Of a stretch of 27,573 nucleotides of DNA, positions 3,315-26,308 are shown piece by piece. The stretch is from the IMG/VR virus record IMGVR_UViG_3300022752_000316, positions 1 to 27,573 of that record; one strand, given 5' to 3'. Each line of letters starts with the position of its first letter. The stretch's first letter is position 1. Source of the DNA: a virus. The position numbers and the translations under genes were made by a program. The notes beneath the pieces are model-generated. The model searched no databases, was not told the origin of the DNA, and worked only from the letters and a program-made list of their open reading frames with translations.

Positions 3315-4106
3315 TCAACCAAGTAAATTAACCAGCGATCTAGCTCTTCCAGATGCCAGTTGGGTATAAACCTGAGTAGTAGCCACAGATGAGTGGCGCA
3401 TTAGGTCTCTTACTGCCAGCAAATCTCCGCCTGATTTCTCAAGCATATTGGTAGCAAAGTAATGACGACAGGCGTGGAAAGTCTTCTTTGGTATACCTAA
3501 GCGCTTCATCTCAGCAGAGCAGAGCTTGGTCAGGTTGTTAGGTGTTACCGACCATATCTTGCCAGAGGTCTCGTGCTTCAAGATGGTCTGGGCTACTATC
3601 GCAGCAACTGGTATGGATAGGTCTGTACCGCCCTTACCTGCCACTCTGAGGATGTATCCGTCATCTTGCTTCTCTAGGTCTACCCCACGAAGGTTTGCCA
3701 CCTCCATAGCCCTTAAACCCGCTTTACAGCCTATTATGAACCAGTCCCTCATAGGCAGGTCAGCCCTAGTCATAACCAGTTCAGCCTCACCAGGAGTCAA
3801 AGGATGAGGCAAACCTCGTCCCTTGCGTACAGCAGGTAGGTCTAGGTCAGCCATATTCTGTATCAGGCCCATCTTGCGTAGGGCTTTGAAGATACTTCTA
3901 ACCCTTGCAGCATAGGTTCCCTTAGTCGAGGCAGCCTTAACGCTCATTACAAGTCTTTGCAGATCTTCAACAGTTGCCAGCTCTGGGTGTACCCCAAGAC
4001 GGACAAGTAGGTTGTAATCATTTCTAAACAGGGCCATTGAATATCCCTGTGTTTCATAGCGATTCTGTAGTTTTTCTTTAATTATTTCTAATGGTATTAG
4101 TTCCAT
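3315..4106 (-). CDS. Tyrosine recombinase (phage integrase family)
   Basis: This 263-residue protein has all the catalytic residues of tyrosine recombinases. R132 sits in GCKAGLRAMEVANL, K158 in VAGKGG, H211 and R214 in HACRH, H238 in LMRHSS, and the nucleophile Y247 in TQVYTQ. Residues 5-95 form a short core-binding (SAM-like) domain. It lacks the extra N-terminal arm-binding domain of lambda-type integrases, so it is nearer the XerC/D size class. It should cut and rejoin DNA at short inverted core sites, for integration, excision or resolution. Its place inside the late operon, between a fibre-type gene and a tail gene and on the same strand, is unusual. It has no Shine-Dalgarno sequence; its promoter abuts the start codon. 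A candidate crossover site lies 37 bp upstream. Confidence 0.93.
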   Translation of the reverse strand: MELIPLEIIKEKLQNRYETQGYSMALFRNDYNLLVRLGVHPELATVEDLQRLVMSVKAASTKGTYAARVRSIFKALRKMGLIQNMADLDLPAVRKGRGLPHPLTPGEAELVMTRADLPMRDWFIIGCKAGLRAMEVANLRGVDLEKQDDGYILRVAGKGGTDLSIPVAAIVAQTILKHETSGKIWSVTPNNLTKLCSAEMKRLGIPKKTFHACRHYFATNMLEKSGGDLLAVRDLMRHSSVATTQVYTQLASGRARSLVNLLG

Positions 4107-6967: not shown

Positions 6968-8027
6968 TGTTTCCTTCCGTATACCAGCCATCTCCCCACA
7001 GAGTTTCTAATCTGCGGAAATAGTATTCATATTGCTTGGCTATAACATCTACCGAGTAGAGCGATATAGCTCTATCTCTAATAGCCTGCCTATCCAAGTT
7101 CTTTACGTTCTGCGTTGCTAAGATAAACTCTTCTACATTGCGACATCTAAAACCAGTCACACCTTGCACTACAGTTTCTGTAAATGCACCCCAGTCTGTT
7201 GTGATTACTGGAGTTCCACAGGCTTGTGATTCAATATTCACATTACCAAAAGGTTCTAAGTAAAGCGTTGGGACAAATGTTGCTATCGCTCCACCCATCA
7301 ACTCTGCACGCTTCTCAGGTCCAACGGGACCTAGATACTCACCATAGTTTGGTATGTGTGGTCCAGGACCTGCAAAGATAAGTCTTGCTCCGATAGTTTT
7401 GCAGATATGCGCTGCAATGTCTATTCCTTTTCTCGGAATCATTCTTCCAATATACAGGTAATAATCTCCATCGCCTTTACCAATTGGAAACATTTCAGGA
7501 TCTAAATAACCTGGAATTACTGCATCAAAGAATGAACCATCTACTTGAGCAGCGTTCTTATGTTGAGCATAGATTGCGTGCATCCAAGCATAAGATTCAT
7601 AAACTCTATATTGAGAAAAGACTCCTGCATAACCTACGCCAAACTCTACTGTCATCATATGTGGCAGTGCATCTGCTATCGGCTTATGACTTGCTCCACC
7701 AATTACACAGATGAAGTCTTGCTTCTCTGCTCGTTTCTTAATCTCAATAGCAGCTTTCTTATTAAACTTTTGCCAGTGAGGTAAACGATAATCAAAGGGT
7801 GCTTCAACATAAGGCTTGTTACCTACAACGATTCTTCTCTGTGTTTCAGAGATGCAAGATATGTGCTCATCTACTTGAGCTTCATTCTCATCGCCTGCAT
7901 ATAGGTAGACCGTATGGCCTAACCCTTTCATCATATTGCAGAATCTGCGAACCTTTTCAGTGTACGCACAACCTGCAAATTCTTTAGTTACCTGTGTATG
8001 GGGTAGCGCTACTACGTGGAATCTCAT
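6942..8027 (-). CDS. GT4-type (GT-B fold) glycosyltransferase
   Basis: This 361-residue protein is a retaining GT-B glycosyltransferase of the group 1/GT4 type. The N-terminal half has the usual opening (MRFHVVALPHTQVTKEFAG) and Rossmann strands. The C-terminal nucleotide-sugar domain shows YLYIGRMIPRKGIDIA (about 190-205) and the EX7E signature EPFGNVNIE (E258, E266) followed by SQACGTPVITTDWGAFTE. It should transfer a sugar from a nucleotide donor, but donor and acceptor cannot be read from sequence. It lies nine bases after a GT25-type enzyme that itself overlaps a collagen-like gene, so the virion fibre is a plausible acceptor; host-surface or DNA modification are alternatives. No clear Shine-Dalgarno sequence precedes the ATG. 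Confidence 0.85.
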   Translation of the reverse strand: MRFHVVALPHTQVTKEFAGCAYTEKVRRFCNMMKGLGHTVYLYAGDENEAQVDEHISCISETQRRIVVGNKPYVEAPFDYRLPHWQKFNKKAAIEIKKRAEKQDFICVIGGASHKPIADALPHMMTVEFGVGYAGVFSQYRVYESYAWMHAIYAQHKNAAQVDGSFFDAVIPGYLDPEMFPIGKGDGDYYLYIGRMIPRKGIDIAAHICKTIGARLIFAGPGPHIPNYGEYLGPVGPEKRAELMGGAIATFVPTLYLEPFGNVNIESQACGTPVITTDWGAFTETVVQGVTGFRCRNVEEFILATQNVKNLDRQAIRDRAISLYSVDVIAKQYEYYFRRLETLWGDGWYTEGNNANTGRND

Positions 8028-10230: not shown

Positions 10231-10496
10231 CACTTCACCTTATCTGCCCAATATGCGGCGCTCATTTTACCTTTAGCGATATTCTTTGCGTGACGGGCTT
10301 TGAAAGACTTTTGCCTAGGTGAAGGCTGTCTATCTCCTGTTACGCCTTGCTGTCCGAATCTAATTGTCTTGATTTGAGATCCTTCTTTGGCAACAACAAC
10401 GTGGCTCTTAGTTGGGTGGCTAGGCGTACGCTTGGGTTTATTGAAGCCCGATACACCAGCTCGTGTAAGACGCGGATCACTTTTTTTCTTTGCCAT
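10227..10496 (-). CDS. Conserved small basic phage protein (RAGVSGFNKPKRTP family)
   Basis: This 89-residue protein has a distinctive series of blocks: RAGVSGFNKPKRTPSHPTKS, HVVVAKEG, KTIRFGQQGV, RQKSFKARHAKNIAKG and MSAAYWADKVKW. This combination is highly conserved in small proteins of many tailed phages, including marine and freshwater ones. I believe it matches a Pfam domain of unknown function (possibly DUF6321), but could not verify the number. It is strongly basic. Conservation and context in the late region suggest a virion or genome-associated protein. Its first 20 bases overlap the end of the preceding small gene, and its end overlaps the next by four bases. Confidence 0.75.
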   Translation of the reverse strand: MAKKKSDPRLTRAGVSGFNKPKRTPSHPTKSHVVVAKEGSQIKTIRFGQQGVTGDRQPSPRQKSFKARHAKNIAKGKMSAAYWADKVKW

Positions 10497-10617
10497 ATTC
10501 TCCGTACTTTCCTAAGATTGCTCGGATTGTTCCGTTCTTATTAAGTCTAACAATCATTCCATTCTTAATCTGAACAGAGTTAAATCCTCGGTGTGTCTTG
10601 TATTGCCCTGAAGACAT
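10477..10617 (-). CDS. Small protein, 46 residues
   Basis: Direct translation gives a 46-residue protein beginning MSSGQYKTHRGFNSVQIKNG and containing IVRLNKNGTIRAILG. This looks like two short beta hairpins with a basic end (KEKK). It starts by a TAATG overlap with the upstream gene and overlaps the next gene by 20 bases in another frame, which supports genuine compact packing. No family was recognised. Function unknown. Confidence 0.55.
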   Translation of the reverse strand: MSSGQYKTHRGFNSVQIKNGMIVRLNKNGTIRAILGKYGEYGKEKK

Positions 10618-10778
10618 TACTTTTTCTTCTTAGCCTTGCCAGCCTCAGAAAGAGCGATAGCAATGGCTTGCTTGCGAGACTTGACTACTGGCCCTTTTTT
10701 GCTACCTGAATGAAGTTTGCCACCTTTGAACTCGCGCATAACTTTCTCAACTTTCTTTGCGCTTTTGGTTTTTTTCAT
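10617..10778 (-). CDS. Small Lys-rich protein, DUF6496-like
   Basis: This 53-residue protein has 17 lysines. It contains EKVMREFKGGKLHSGSKKGP (residues 11-30) followed by SRKQAIAIALSEAGKAKKKK. The pattern VMxEFKxGKLxSGSKKGPxVxxRKQAIAIALSEA matches, as I recall it, the small domain family DUF6496 found in phages and bacteria; the name is from memory. Function unknown; DNA binding is plausible from charge. Starts and ends by TAATG overlaps with both neighbours, so it belongs to a coupled chain. Confidence 0.72.
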   Translation of the reverse strand: MKKTKSAKKVEKVMREFKGGKLHSGSKKGPVVKSRKQAIAIALSEAGKAKKKK

Positions 10779-11792: not shown

Positions 11793-12734
11793 CTAATTGA
11801 TAGAAGTTGCAGTCTCAATGCGGTATAGAGCCGCTTCACGAAGACGTGCAAAGCCACCAAAGTAGTACCAGCCGATGGTGCGGAAACGGCGCAGAGCGTC
11901 AATTTCTGGACCAATCACAACTGATGTATCTTGGACGGTTGCTTCAGCAAGTGCTTCACGACCTGCAACTACTGCGCTATAGACAGTAACTGCTGGTGAT
12001 TGCGTATTTGCCGCAGACGGAACGCGAGGTGTTTCAACAATGAATGCACCTTCAAGAACGCCAACTGCTCCAGCAACGAACGGAGTACGATCAACGTACT
12101 TGGTTAGCTCCTGGAATCCACCAGTGCCTGATTCGGCACGGAGGTCAGCAGACTGACGTGGGTGTAGATATGCAGCATATAGATCGCCAATGCGAGGAAC
12201 TGCCTTGTTGCTGCGAAGCTGAACAACAGCCTTACGGATGTTAGCAGTAGTAATAGTGCCAGAGGATGTAATACCGTTGGTGCCAGTTGCGGCTCCACCG
12301 TAGATTACGTTAGTTCCTGTGGAACCAGTTAGAACGGCTGCTACTACAGAGTCAATAGAATCTGCAGCGTTGTATGCAATGATATCAGCAAGAGCTGCAT
12401 CAACATCATTAAATGATGTTAGGTTCAGCTTCTTGGTGGTTGTTACGGCTGAGCCGTACTCGTTTAGTGTTACAGTAACCTGTGATGGGTTACCAAGAGC
12501 AATAGAGGAAACATCAGAAGTTTCTGTCAAAGTACCAGTCGCTGTTGCAAGATCTGAGTAAATGGAGAATACAACTGACGAACCTGGCATTGCTTGCTGT
12601 ACTGGCTTAACATCAGCCAACGCACGCATCACTGGGATGGAGCGAAGAGCCATACGAACATACTGATCGTACGCACTCTGTACAAGGTTTTGCATTGACG
12701 AAATTTGTGTCAATGTACCTGTAGGAATTGCCAT
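11793..12734 (-). CDS. Major capsid protein (HK97 fold, N4 gp56-like)
   Basis: This 313-residue protein has the length and features of an HK97-fold major capsid protein of the N4 gp56-like group. The N-terminal helix region contains QNLVQSAYDQYVRMALRSIP. A beta stretch VTVTLNEYGSAVTTTKKLNLTSF leads into a helical spine (DVDAALADIIAYNAADSID). The A-domain contains YAAYLHPRQSADLRAES and VGVLEGAFIVETPRV. The last segment, GWYYFGGFARLREAALYRIET, is typical of the end of these proteins. It follows the scaffold gene, and a good AAAGG precedes the ATG. There is no fused protease or delta domain. It is the main shell subunit; the subfamily assignment is less certain than the role. Confidence 0.85.
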   Translation of the reverse strand: MAIPTGTLTQISSMQNLVQSAYDQYVRMALRSIPVMRALADVKPVQQAMPGSSVVFSIYSDLATATGTLTETSDVSSIALGNPSQVTVTLNEYGSAVTTTKKLNLTSFNDVDAALADIIAYNAADSIDSVVAAVLTGSTGTNVIYGGAATGTNGITSSGTITTANIRKAVVQLRSNKAVPRIGDLYAAYLHPRQSADLRAESGTGGFQELTKYVDRTPFVAGAVGVLEGAFIVETPRVPSAANTQSPAVTVYSAVVAGREALAEATVQDTSVVIGPEIDALRRFRTIGWYYFGGFARLREAALYRIETATSIN

Positions 12735-12762
12735 TTATTTTACCTTTCGGATAGGTTCGGTC

Positions 12763-13233
12763 TTAGAGACCAGACGACCTAATAATTTCATCCAGTTCTT
12801 CACGGCTATTTGCATTCATCAACTTACGATGAACGTCTGCTTGGAACTCAGGAGTAATTCCCTGCTCTACAGCATTAGTCATCCGTTGATATGCAGCCGC
12901 TTGCTTTGGGTCCACATTAGGCGTTGCCTGGTTTGACTGGGTTTCATAGCCGAATACATCGGCATAATCTTCCAGCCATTTTGATACAGACTCCTCAGTT
13001 GGGTCTATATCCTGTGGGATAAATGCAGCAATTTTGCTGTTTACCCCCCGACTAGCAAGAGCATCTTTGATTGCTCGCTCACGGTTGGATTTAGAGATAG
13101 ATTCAAACTGAACTTTTAGTTCAGCTAGTTCTTTCTCTTTTTGTTTATTTGCTTTTCGCAACTGTTTGACGAGATCATTGCCATCATTAGATGGTGTATC
13201 AAAGTCGTCATCTTCGTAGTCGTAGTTGGACAT
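12763..13233 (-). CDS. Capsid scaffolding protein
   Basis: This 156-residue protein has an acidic start (SNYDYEDDDFDTPSNDGND), a charged coiled-coil helix (about residues 20-55, LVKQLRKANKQKEKELAELK region), a middle with SRGVNSKIAAFIPQDIDPTEE, and a helical C-terminus (EFQADVHRKLMNA - REELDEIIRSSGL). These are usual features of phage scaffolding proteins, which direct capsid assembly and then leave. It lies immediately before the major capsid gene. The start at 13233 is chosen over 13275 because GGGAGAAGGACC precedes it; the longer frame adds 14 unconvincing residues. No protease is seen in the window. Confidence 0.78.
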   Translation of the reverse strand: MSNYDYEDDDFDTPSNDGNDLVKQLRKANKQKEKELAELKVQFESISKSNRERAIKDALASRGVNSKIAAFIPQDIDPTEESVSKWLEDYADVFGYETQSNQATPNVDPKQAAAYQRMTNAVEQGITPEFQADVHRKLMNANSREELDEIIRSSGL

Positions 13234-23412: not shown

Positions 23413-25275
23413 CTAGACAAATTGACGTTGTTGTTGTTCTGCTATTAAATCGTCTATGTTTACTACTAGACGCTTGCCTCGCTCGTAACGAGACAAAAAC
23501 GGATTCTTCAGATGATGCACTGTATGGTTGCCATTGTTGAGCCATTCTCTAGCTCTAATCTCACAGAACCATAGAGCCATAACCATATCGGTCTTACCCT
23601 TAGTAGTGGGTGACCAGGTAATAAGTTGCTCTATTAAAGCCTTAACATTCTCAGTTTGATCTGATGGCAGATGAATTATATTATCTCTATGATGCTTACC
23701 ATCAGGTTGCTTAGTTCCAAATAGGGTAGACATAGAAGCTACGCCAAAGCCTGAATCCCACTTATTGCTACCAGTATGATGTTCTCTTAATACTGTTCCC
23801 TTAGATGCTAGGAACTGTCTGATACCTTCATCCTGAGTTAAGAAAGACTGGAAAGCGTTACGCTCTACAACCCATTCAGCAGGTGTATAGACGTTGGTCC
23901 AATCAATAATCAACTGTCTAATCTGAGCAGGGGTAGGCTTGGTAATCTTGATAGCATCTACGATATAGCGCTTATGTGTGATGCGGTCTACTGCATAACA
24001 GATAGCGGCAGTATCACCGACCATAGCAGGATCTAATCCACATACAAAAGAAAAACCAGTTAAATCTCTAGGATGGCCTGGAGCTCCTGCTTGCAAGCGA
24101 CCAGCCTTACGCATACCATCAATAGAACCTCTAACAGATACTGGGTCAAATATGGCATCATCTGAGATATCTTGTTGCTGATAAATCAAAGCCCAAGTGC
24201 TGGCATCCATAGCTTGACGTTCTGCAAAGAGATGCTTACCGTTCCATCTAGGATAGAGACCTTCTTCGGTCTTATCAGCATCGCTCTGCCCATCAAAGGG
24301 TTGGTCTGAGTAAGGCCAGAGAGTTACCCACTTGGTGGGGTCCTCATTGGTTTCAAGTAAAGCTGGCATCGCCAGATATGTCCAAGGGACCAAGCCACCA
24401 GGGTATCTATCAGGAGAGCGTAGTTCTTTGTATAAGTCTACAGAGGCAACGCGGGTTCCGATAACAATTAACTTACCAGTAGGGTTAAGACGGGATCTAA
24501 CATCTTGGGTAAGCCATCTAATCTGCTTTTCAAACTCATTAGCGTTCTTCAAGGTAACAGCATCATCAACAATAATCATATCGGCACGCTTACCGTATAT
24601 CTGACCGCCAATACCAACAGCTTCTATATTGGGGTCTTTCTCAGATGATTCTCTGAGTTCATCACCGAAGGTAACCCTAGTAGTAGTCCAGGTAGCAGAT
24701 TTAGAGTTAAAGCCGACACCAGCAGCATAGGCCTGCTGTAGTTCCTCATACATTGGATGGGTAAGGCGCTGCTTGATAGCATATAAGAAATCTGCTGCAA
24801 GCTGCTGAGTCTGGGATACTATTAAAACTCTAAAGTTAGGATTCTGGACTATCTTCCAAGTTACATAGTCAACTGTGATAGTCATTGACTTGGCGTGATT
24901 GGGTGGAATGTTTATCAGGATGCGGTTATCAGCAATACCCTTTTCGTACTTCATAGAGCTGTGATACCAAGAGGGCTCACGCCCTTCTATAACATCTGCC
25001 AGGTTCTGCTGATGAGCAAAGGTCCTCTGATGAAGGAATCTCTGGCGGAACTCTGCAAAGGGTAGGTCGTGAACATCGGTAGATGCAAAGTTCTTAGATC
25101 TTAACCCTAGGCGGGTTCTATCAATTTTATCGGCAAAGACCTTATCGGTTCTACGGTAGTACTCATAACTTTTTATGGATTTACCAGCAGAGGCACAAGC
25201 CTGTTCTATAGTAATACCCTCTGCTACAGCGTTAAGGATTACCCTTTTAGCTATATCAGCAGTGTTGTTAGAAAT
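23413..25275 (-). CDS. terL: Large terminase with N-terminal HTH-like extension, apparent ATT start
   Basis: This packaging motor has ATPase motifs: a Walker A variant PPNHAKS (residues 124-130), Walker B DMIIVDD (232-238) and IGTR (272-275). RNase H-type nuclease acids are D415 (GLDPA), E471 (VERN) and D563 (TDMVMA). The first ATG in frame (24954) would give 513 residues and start only 16 residues before Walker A, with no adenine-binding region. The same frame stays open 107 codons further upstream. There, residues 10-60 (ILNAVAEGITIEQACASAGK onward) look like a helix-turn-helix of small terminase type, and about 68-105 (FRQRFLHQRTFAHQQNLADV) like the usual terminase entry. The upstream section has no ATG, GTG or TTG, but TAGGAG with 6-nt spacing precedes an ATT at 25275. 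Total 620 residues. Confidence 0.85.
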   Translation of the reverse strand: MSNNTADIAKRVILNAVAEGITIEQACASAGKSIKSYEYYRRTDKVFADKIDRTRLGLRSKNFASTDVHDLPFAEFRQRFLHQRTFAHQQNLADVIEGREPSWYHSSMKYEKGIADNRILINIPPNHAKSMTITVDYVTWKIVQNPNFRVLIVSQTQQLAADFLYAIKQRLTHPMYEELQQAYAAGVGFNSKSATWTTTRVTFGDELRESSEKDPNIEAVGIGGQIYGKRADMIIVDDAVTLKNANEFEKQIRWLTQDVRSRLNPTGKLIVIGTRVASVDLYKELRSPDRYPGGLVPWTYLAMPALLETNEDPTKWVTLWPYSDQPFDGQSDADKTEEGLYPRWNGKHLFAERQAMDASTWALIYQQQDISDDAIFDPVSVRGSIDGMRKAGRLQAGAPGHPRDLTGFSFVCGLDPAMVGDTAAICYAVDRITHKRYIVDAIKITKPTPAQIRQLIIDWTNVYTPAEWVVERNAFQSFLTQDEGIRQFLASKGTVLREHHTGSNKWDSGFGVASMSTLFGTKQPDGKHHRDNIIHLPSDQTENVKALIEQLITWSPTTKGKTDMVMALWFCEIRAREWLNNGNHTVHHLKNPFLSRYERGKRLVVNIDDLIAEQQQRQFV

Positions 25276-25459
25276 AGCAGGCTCCTAAATTTTTGACAGA
25301 ATACACCCGACTAAATGAGGCGACTTGCGCCTCGTTATCGGGCTTGAGCGCCCGAACGAGTCACAACGAAGTGAGGGGTAAGTCAGCTCCACCCCTTCTA
25401 GGGGCGTAGCGTGAGCGTAGCCCGCAGTAAGCTACAACCGTTCCGCTTACTGCTCCTAT

Positions 25460-25487
25460 ACTGTATTAGGCGGGAAAAAAAAGTCAT
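25460..25487 (-). promoter_or_regulatory. Possible late promoter upstream of terminase
   Basis: On the minus strand, ATGACT (25487-25482; 4 of 6 matches to TTGACA) and TACAGT (25465-25460; TANNNT) are 16 bp apart. They would drive a transcript with a leader of about 180 nt before the terminase. The match is weak, and phages often use phage-encoded factors for late genes. Confidence 0.25.
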
Positions 25488-25502
25488 TTCCCGCTTTTTT
25501 TC
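25470..25502 (+). terminator. Intrinsic terminator, + strand
   Basis: GCGGGAAA (25470-25477) pairs perfectly with TTTCCCGC (25487-25494) around a 9-nt loop, followed by a run of seven T. This is a textbook rho-independent terminator for transcripts moving right. No gene on the + strand lies just upstream, so it either ends a small RNA or blocks antisense reading. Confidence 0.75.
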
Positions 25503-25931
25503 TAAAAATCTTTATTTTGTGTTAAACATCACAATTAAATACGGACAAACTAGGACACTGTACGATCAACGTTCACTTTAGGAAAAAAATTTAGTTGGGG
25601 TACATACATACACCCACTCCGTAATTAAGCAAGGCTGGGTCCGCGTTTTCTACGCGGGCAGACTTGCGCGGGATAGTGCTAGGCGTGGGGAATTGTGGAG
25701 AGTAAGGGTAGAAAGTGGAGGGCGTGCTACGACATCGGCATACCCCGCGCCCATAATAATTCTCCAACTCTACTTAATAAACCGCTAACCGATAGCCCTG
25801 CCCTGCCTTGCTCTGCCCTGCCCGATAAGGCTGGAGCTCTCTCAGACAACTCTCAGGATTAGATCTTTAGTTGAGGGTTAAGGTTTCTATCCCTGCCACC
25901 GACACGCCCTAAAAGATTTATTCATAAACAT

Positions 25932-25959
25932 TTGACAAGATAGATTAGCCTGATATATC
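25932..25959 (+). promoter_or_regulatory. Early promoter of the + strand operon
   Basis: A perfect -35 TTGACA (25932-25937) is followed after 16 bp by TATATC (25954-25959; 4 of 6). Transcription should begin near 25966, about 37 nt before the first ATG at 26003. The position directly before the first early gene and the adjoining palindrome support it. Confidence 0.65.
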
Positions 25960-25970
25960 CTTGCTTTATA

Positions 25971-25987
25971 GATAGCAAATTGCTATC
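25971..25987. promoter_or_regulatory. Operator-like 17-bp palindrome at the early promoter
   Basis: GATAGCAA (25971-25978) and TTGCTATC (25980-25987) form a perfect 8-bp inverted repeat around one central base. It begins about 5 nt after the expected transcription start, a typical place for a repressor site. It could also fold as a small hairpin in the mRNA leader, but the one-base centre makes a dimeric protein site more likely. Confidence 0.55.
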
Positions 25988-26002
25988 GGATAAGGATAAA
26001 AA

Positions 26003-26308
26003 ATGGAAATCTGTTTGGTTTGTTCATCAGATAAAGATGATAACGGCTTGGTAATCTGCTCATCTTGCGATTCTGTTGATTTTGTTCCTGTTGATTCAGA
26101 TGGCAGGGCTTGCGGTGCTTGCGGTGATTTCATCGTTGAGATAGATACCGCCCGCCATAACTGCTCAGAAGAAAGCACTATTCAAGACCGCATAATGAAA
26201 GTTATTGAAATCTTGAAAACGCCAGAAAGTAGCGATGAAATCTGGTGGTGTATCGGAGAATTAGAAACCTTAGTGAAAGACCTCAACTCAGAAAAGGAAA
26301 ACGCATAA
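26003..26308 (+). CDS. Small double zinc-ribbon-like early protein
   Basis: This 101-residue protein has three paired-cysteine knuckles: CLVC (4-7), CSSC (19-22) and CGAC (37-40). The first two plausibly form one zinc-binding ribbon and the third joins C54 or H52 nearby. A helical C-terminal half follows (about 58-98, acidic). This plan fits a small regulator or adaptor with a zinc N-terminus. It is the first gene after the early promoter, with AAGGAT 6 nt before the ATG. Early phage genes of this kind often modify host processes, but nothing specific can be read here. Confidence 0.6.
   Translation: MEICLVCSSDKDDNGLVICSSCDSVDFVPVDSDGRACGACGDFIVEIDTARHNCSEESTIQDRIMKVIEILKTPESSDEIWWCIGELETLVKDLNSEKENA

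Follow-up and report, generated by a model that had tools for sequence, protein, structure and literature searches.

The closest annotated relatives of the virus studied here are the Beephvirinae phages of Streptomyces and the phages of Planktophila, with a terminase identity of 46–49%. At the left end of the Beephvirinae genomes (Immanuel3, FlowerPower, WRightOn and Manuel), the terminase gene lies opposite the early genes, and the region harbors several hairpins, a conserved edge box (GCAACTCAAACG), CRP-type palindromes, a TATA-like box on the terminase strand (TATAAT, TATACT or TATAGT) and the sequence GGGGACT at the edge of the terminal repeat. The records of Immanuel3, FlowerPower and WRightOn have identical repeats at both ends, of 275, 253 and 264 bp, respectively, with the inner edge GGGGACT/CACTCC (the slash marking the edge) in the divergent noncoding region. 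On the early side, two Beephvirinae loci (L184 and L188) contain early-leader repeats like TTTGAGAACTCAACAGTG, which resemble the boxA antitermination sequences of actinobacterial rRNA leaders. Planktophila phages E7 and F5 (PMC10202952), like the G2-type phages, are actinophages of fresh water that carry WhiB-like and sigma-70-like genes.

The locus described here shares the layout of the Beephvirinae left end. However, its hairpins differ, a covariance model built from them found no match at the Beephvirinae left ends searched, and the terminal repeat, visible in the Beephvirinae records, is only predicted here. The window, i.e., the whole stretch of DNA analysed, is the 27,573-base record IMGVR_UViG_3300022752_000316 (positions 1 to 27,573).

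Genomic context of the element

The structural genes of the window read leftward, the terminase gene being the first in that unit, and small rightward genes begin at 26003. The hairpin-bearing element occupies the gap between these early and terminase operons, which diverge from each other; a CRP-type palindrome and a probable late promoter reading leftward adjoin it (Table 1). No ORF of at least 60 aa was found in 25276–26002, except one on the minus strand overlapping the right end. On the plus strand, the 25290–25510 region contains no ORF of this length, which bears out the sequence-only reading that no plus-strand gene lies at the hairpins.

The terminase, a TerL of 620 aa, is extended at its N-terminus; a separate small terminase gene was not noticed beside the element. 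The start codon is likely ATT at 25275, with AGGAG 6 nt upstream (25286–25282). The spacing is ideal (25273–25286, minus strand), and relatives have ATT, ATA or ATG at this place (ATG in locus L010), a rare terminase start codon being kept in part of the phage family. Among the tail-side genes, a tyrosine-recombinase-type integrase is encoded (3315–4106, minus strand; Pfam PF00589, E = 2e-12). No relative of the terminase was found in bacterial and archaeal genomes, and hence no prophage context. The noncoding sequence to the right of the element (25620–25960) is hypervariable among relatives, and contigs tend to break there.

Table 1. Coordinates of the terminase gene and of the features in the adjoining noncoding region of the window.
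Feature	Position	Strand	Remarks
Terminase large subunit	23413–25275	−	PHROG 38, E = 1.4e-64; start codons aligned across relatives
Left-edge box ACACCCGACTAAAT	25303–25316	+	Conserved edge across loci; family consensus TAYACCCMACTAAAA or TATCCCCACTAAAA
H1 hairpin	25317–25333	+	Covariation
H2a hairpin	25339–25354	+	Alternative to the outer part of H2b; missing from some clades
H2b hairpin, GA/GA internal loop	25351–25378	+	CCC-GA-AC-GA-GT-CACA-AC-GAA-GT-GA-GGG
H3 hairpin, GNA/GNA internal loop and GNNA loop	25402–25423	+	GGGC-GTA-GC-GTGA-GC-GTA-GCCC
H4 hairpin, 9 bp stem, 12 nt loop	25424–25453	+	Stem changes compensated within and between clades
H5 inverted repeat GCGGGAAA...TTTCCCGC	25470–25494		Followed in the window by a T-run, 25495–25501 (TTTTTTT)
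Candidate −10 box TACAGT of a leftward late/terminase promoter	25460–25465	−	Placed like TATAAT, TATACT and TATAGT of the Streptomyces relatives
CRP/GlxR-type palindrome TGTGTTAAACATCACA	25518–25533		TGTGACTAACGTCACA in relatives; predicted site, one per genome here in most
Conserved block CACTTTAGGA..TTGGGGTAC	25574–25603		Likened to GGTGGAWWTTTNNGGGGACT at the Beephvirinae repeat edge
Predicted terminal repeat	25604–25745		Distal edge about 25694–25745; contig-end pile-up in relatives

Hairpins and covariation

All the hairpins proposed from the sequence (H1, H2a, H2b, H3, H4 and H5) were located. The plus strand of 25290–25510 folds with −80.8 kcal/mol (z = −4.25; of 200 dinucleotide shuffles, one was equally good) and the minus strand with −80.3 kcal/mol (z = −3.41). 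A mutually exclusive pair of hairpins had also been proposed; H2a and H2b do overlap in the window, but the alternative is missing in some clades that keep H2b (e.g., L058, L060, L064 and L074). In some relatives, H4 may form a pseudoknot.

MAFFT alone fails to align the hairpins between clades. As the hairpins are not the same in every clade, RNAalifold yielded nothing informative from the plain MAFFT alignment; instead, each hairpin was cut out and aligned separately. The share of paired cells, somewhat favored by the picking of sequences by motif patterns, was 97.7% for H1, 100% for H2b, 98.1% for H3 and 99.3% for H2 and H3 combined. The corresponding covariation values were 0.439, 0.349, 0.447 and 0.367 vs. 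0.083, 0.168, 0.121 and 0.125 in shuffled controls, and every slid version of the combined alignment scored far lower. The pattern used for H2 required no pairing at the varying positions. In H3, the two inner pairs between the GNA/GNA loops covary, and the terminal loops are mostly GNNA. Covariation on related phages had been put forward as a check, and H1, H2, H3 and the combined alignment all exceeded the controls. Judged by this covariation above shuffled and slid controls, it is a genuine conserved structured RNA element, whose transcription is predicted. Some clades have lost H1 or have H2 or H3 replaced by other hairpins; the CTAAAAG motif is kept even where H1 is not.

The primary sequence and spacing of H5 are better conserved than its pairing. 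The sequence AGGCRGRAAAAATANNNCATTTCC around it is conserved, with a spacing that hardly varies, also in relatives with a weak stem, and this conservation looks like a DNA signal. A plus-strand terminator had been read near 25502, and the window does have the H5 stem followed by seven T. However, at least six T within the 9 nt after H5 were found in only 10 of the 91 unique relatives, belonging to few lineages, and a conserved intrinsic terminator at 25502 is not supported for this reason. Thus, of the phage small RNA suggested earlier, the conserved structured RNA is supported (by covariation, one copy per genome and the pairing chemistry of the plus strand), and the conserved terminator is not.

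Distribution among related phages

The relatives were taken from two terminase searches of IMG/VR, as the best 80 loci from each. According to the region profile, the element is present once in 149 of the 159 sequences, all of them terminase relatives; the other 10 are apparently contigs that end short of the element or barely inside it. All carriers have it upstream of the terminase in identical orientation, and it remains one unit in loci where an insertion of small genes separates it from the terminase (L005, L010, L016 and L054). In 11 relatives of 31–41 kb, the profile search gave a match at the place of the element only, and the covariance model of H2 and H3 recovered the element with no second match (in G006, the match was marginal and partial, at the same place). 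One locus of these viruses, L083, encodes WhiB-like and sigma-like proteins (10395–10742 and 7042–7674, minus strand), as reported for related freshwater actinophages (PMC10202952), and a protein with a proteasome-subunit domain (12572–13195, minus strand; Pfam PF00227, E = 6e-07).

No credible match to the covariance model was found in the Streptomyces phages or in Planktophila phages E7 and F5, although the latter have the closest terminases among the records (49% identity). A match in L189 (E = 0.15) falls in the terminase, not at the left end, and the same model finds no such RNA in more distantly related terminase loci. The phage records yielded no nucleotide match, and an exact 29-mer from H1/H2a was absent from the viral contigs searched. 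Rfam gave no matches for the window at the gathering score, for the element at E up to 1 or for the Beephvirinae ends at the gathering score. The literature searched contained no report of the element. It occurs, as a noncoding element present once per genome, in a family of freshwater actinophage-like viruses; this RNA family and its placement are new, whereas phage noncoding RNAs and structured leaders are already known as kinds.

Functional strand and the late promoter

A G-U pair on the plus strand corresponds to A-C on the minus strand. Pair changes, counted per sequence in H1–H3, comprised 28 G-U cells and 0 A-C cells, the G-U changes being few as independent events. At one pair of H2b, A-U, G-U and G-C all occur. 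The middle H2 helix, with 18 G-U cells, is the cleanest part of the comparison because the pattern required no pairing there. The GNA/GNA motif of H3 was found on the plus strand in 58 of 99 unique sequences and on the minus strand in none of the 99. The folding energy does not separate the strands (family-wide mean difference of 0.5 kcal/mol, standard error 0.75). Strand bias, like the presence, position, covariation and uniqueness of the element, is read directly from the sequences, and since G-U changes occur without A-C and the GNA/GNA motif is confined to the plus strand, the latter is the likelier functional fold.

The minus-strand box beside H4 is TACAGT in the window and TATAGT or TACAGT in relatives. 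The Beephvirinae boxes are equivalently placed and likewise have CRP-type palindromes on their far side. The agreement suggests a late promoter that reads leftward, with a leader complementary to the structured RNA; the promoter role is predicted. The half-sites of the TGTGA-N6-TCACA palindrome agree at 8–10 of 10 positions in all listed loci and at 9 of 10 in the window, where the site is predicted from sequence only. In its exact form, the palindrome is nearly always the sole one in the genome among the relatives having it, and it is common to freshwater and Streptomyces phages (in the window and at the Beephvirinae left ends). It suggests that late expression of the phages may be tied to a global regulator of the host. 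Counted from the GGC in the H5 motif, the palindrome is 29, 34, 40 or 49–50 nt away. Exact DnaA boxes (TTATCCACA) occur between the element and the early genes in L008, L046, L047, G002, G004 and G008, mostly at 400–620 bp from the start of the element, and may indicate a replication origin; the window has no exact DnaA box.

The explanation that we prefer, while giving it somewhat less than an even chance, is that the sequence from 25303 to about 25455 encodes a plus-strand noncoding RNA of the left-end control region, antisense to the late leader and situated between the predicted late/terminase promoter and the start of the terminase gene. The RNA would start at the conserved ACTAAAA edge and run toward the genome end. 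The left-edge box is a candidate 5′ end with a presumed promoter role; a weak −10-like CAGAAT is located at 25297–25302 (TAGANT in many relatives), and no convincing −35 was seen for a plus-strand promoter. Such an RNA would be complementary to almost all of the 5′ leader on the leftward terminase/late mRNA and would probably regulate late or terminase expression. It would restrain or time the expression of late and packaging genes, either by pairing with or shielding the late leader or through transcription that converges on the CRP-flanked late promoter. The promoter, transcript ends, target and effect ascribed to this RNA are all predictions. The earlier idea of a decoy of the late leader holds as to location, the element being antisense to the leader predicted for the late/terminase transcript that runs leftward; the role itself is likewise hypothetical.

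The main rival, which we regard as rather unlikely, assigns the hairpins to the opposite strand, where they would structure the leader of a late/terminase mRNA made leftward. Transcription would start near 25455, and the hairpins would make up a 5′ UTR of ~180 nt that attenuates, provides a site for antitermination or controls translation, like lambda pR′-6S RNA-tR′ ahead of the late genes. The candidate −10 box shared with isolated relatives, the CRP-type palindromes on its upstream side and the terminase gene coming first in the leftward operon are consistent with such a leader, as are the TTTTAG after H1 in many relatives, which resembles a weak minus-strand terminator, and the long structured leaders of Beephvirinae, different as their hairpins are. 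The spacing from palindrome to promoter is mostly near helical steps (29, 40 and 49–50 nt), but that of one clade (34 nt) is out of phase. The strand comparison speaks against the leader: the pair changes proceed via G-U on the plus strand, which would be A-C in the leader, and the GNA/GNA and GNNA motifs are found on the plus strand only. The CTAAAAG motif, moreover, is conserved where H1 is absent.

Predicted genome end

The conserved block to the right of the palindrome is predicted to be the genome-end signal, at the proximal edge of a terminal repeat, and its TTGGGGTAC part (25595–25603) lines up with the Beephvirinae repeat edge. Matches of the right-block profile to Beephvirinae are individually weak (E of at least 0.19), the best ones being at or near the repeat edge; because of these E-values, the homology rests partly on position and layout. 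Contig ends in the phage group of the window number 41 within 600 bp of the element start vs. 11 in the next 1500 bp. Their peak, 390–441 past the element start (about 25694–25745), may mark the distal edge of the terminal repeat or an assembly break where the variable sequence starts. The early-side contigs, few in number, have no matching pile-up at the predicted repeat edge. The element lies about 150 bp from the equivalent of the Beephvirinae terminal repeat.

With the genome end this near, the hairpin array could act in packaging or end formation as DNA, recognized or extruded as the terminase cuts concatemers. We consider this improbable. The element does adjoin the predicted end, in a divergent region equivalent to that of the 253–275 bp Beephvirinae repeats, the best right-block matches are at the repeat edge, and contig ends of relatives cluster just past the element. 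However, a cruciform is not expected to have internal loops or G-U pairs, and the covariance model has no equivalent in Beephvirinae. The covarying core is 150–290 bp from the predicted cut, and the conserved block beside the cut is the better pac candidate.

The sequence-only reading had also mentioned a packaging RNA. The location agrees, as the element adjoins the predicted genome end; the role itself is a possibility from position only. An RNA acting in the motor, analogous to phi29 pRNA, would have its gene next to the terminase and within a few hundred bp of the predicted end, with predicted transcription toward the end and with no separate small terminase gene noticed nearby. Nevertheless, we hold it to be highly improbable: Rfam, searched at E up to 1, has nothing that matches the element, the 620 aa TerL with its N-terminal extension is not a phi29-type ATPase, a conserved kissing-loop pair was not seen, and more distant relatives of the terminase lack the RNA. 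A plus-strand RNA that is a working part of packaging or end formation, as a packaging RNA outside the phi29 group, is given scarcely more credence; if true, the gene for it would adjoin the terminal repeat in a freshwater phage family that is abundant. Chance or bidirectional terminators or palindromes with no RNA function, for which one could cite the GC-rich palindromes common at intergenic ends and the similar folding energy of both strands, are barely credible, being already contradicted by covariation far above the controls, by single-copy positional conservation and by the conserved internal loops and spacing.

Comparison with known systems

The element adds an RNA family that is absent from Rfam and clearly covaries; its carriers are related to phages that infect very abundant actinobacteria of fresh water. 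The family is placed in a switch region where the early genes, the predicted late promoter and the predicted genome end come together. This layout is common to isolated Streptomyces phages, and therefore laboratory work can address what structured RNA does at ends of this kind.

In phage lambda, pR′, 6S RNA and tR′ form a ~200 nt leader between the late promoter and the late genes. The leader predicted here is of similar length and would likewise lead from a late promoter to late genes; however, the fold is favored on the opposite strand, and the terminator is not conserved. The pRNA of phi29 is a structured RNA encoded near the genome end where packaging starts. The element is also a structured RNA near a predicted genome end, but it differs from pRNA in the lack of an Rfam match and in the type of terminase. 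P22 sar and lambda OOP are noncoding antisense RNAs of phages, complementary to an mRNA region. The plus-strand RNA that we prefer would resemble them in its complementarity to a phage mRNA region, predicted in this case from sequence alone; unlike them, the element covers a leader and has a conserved internal-loop structure of its own.
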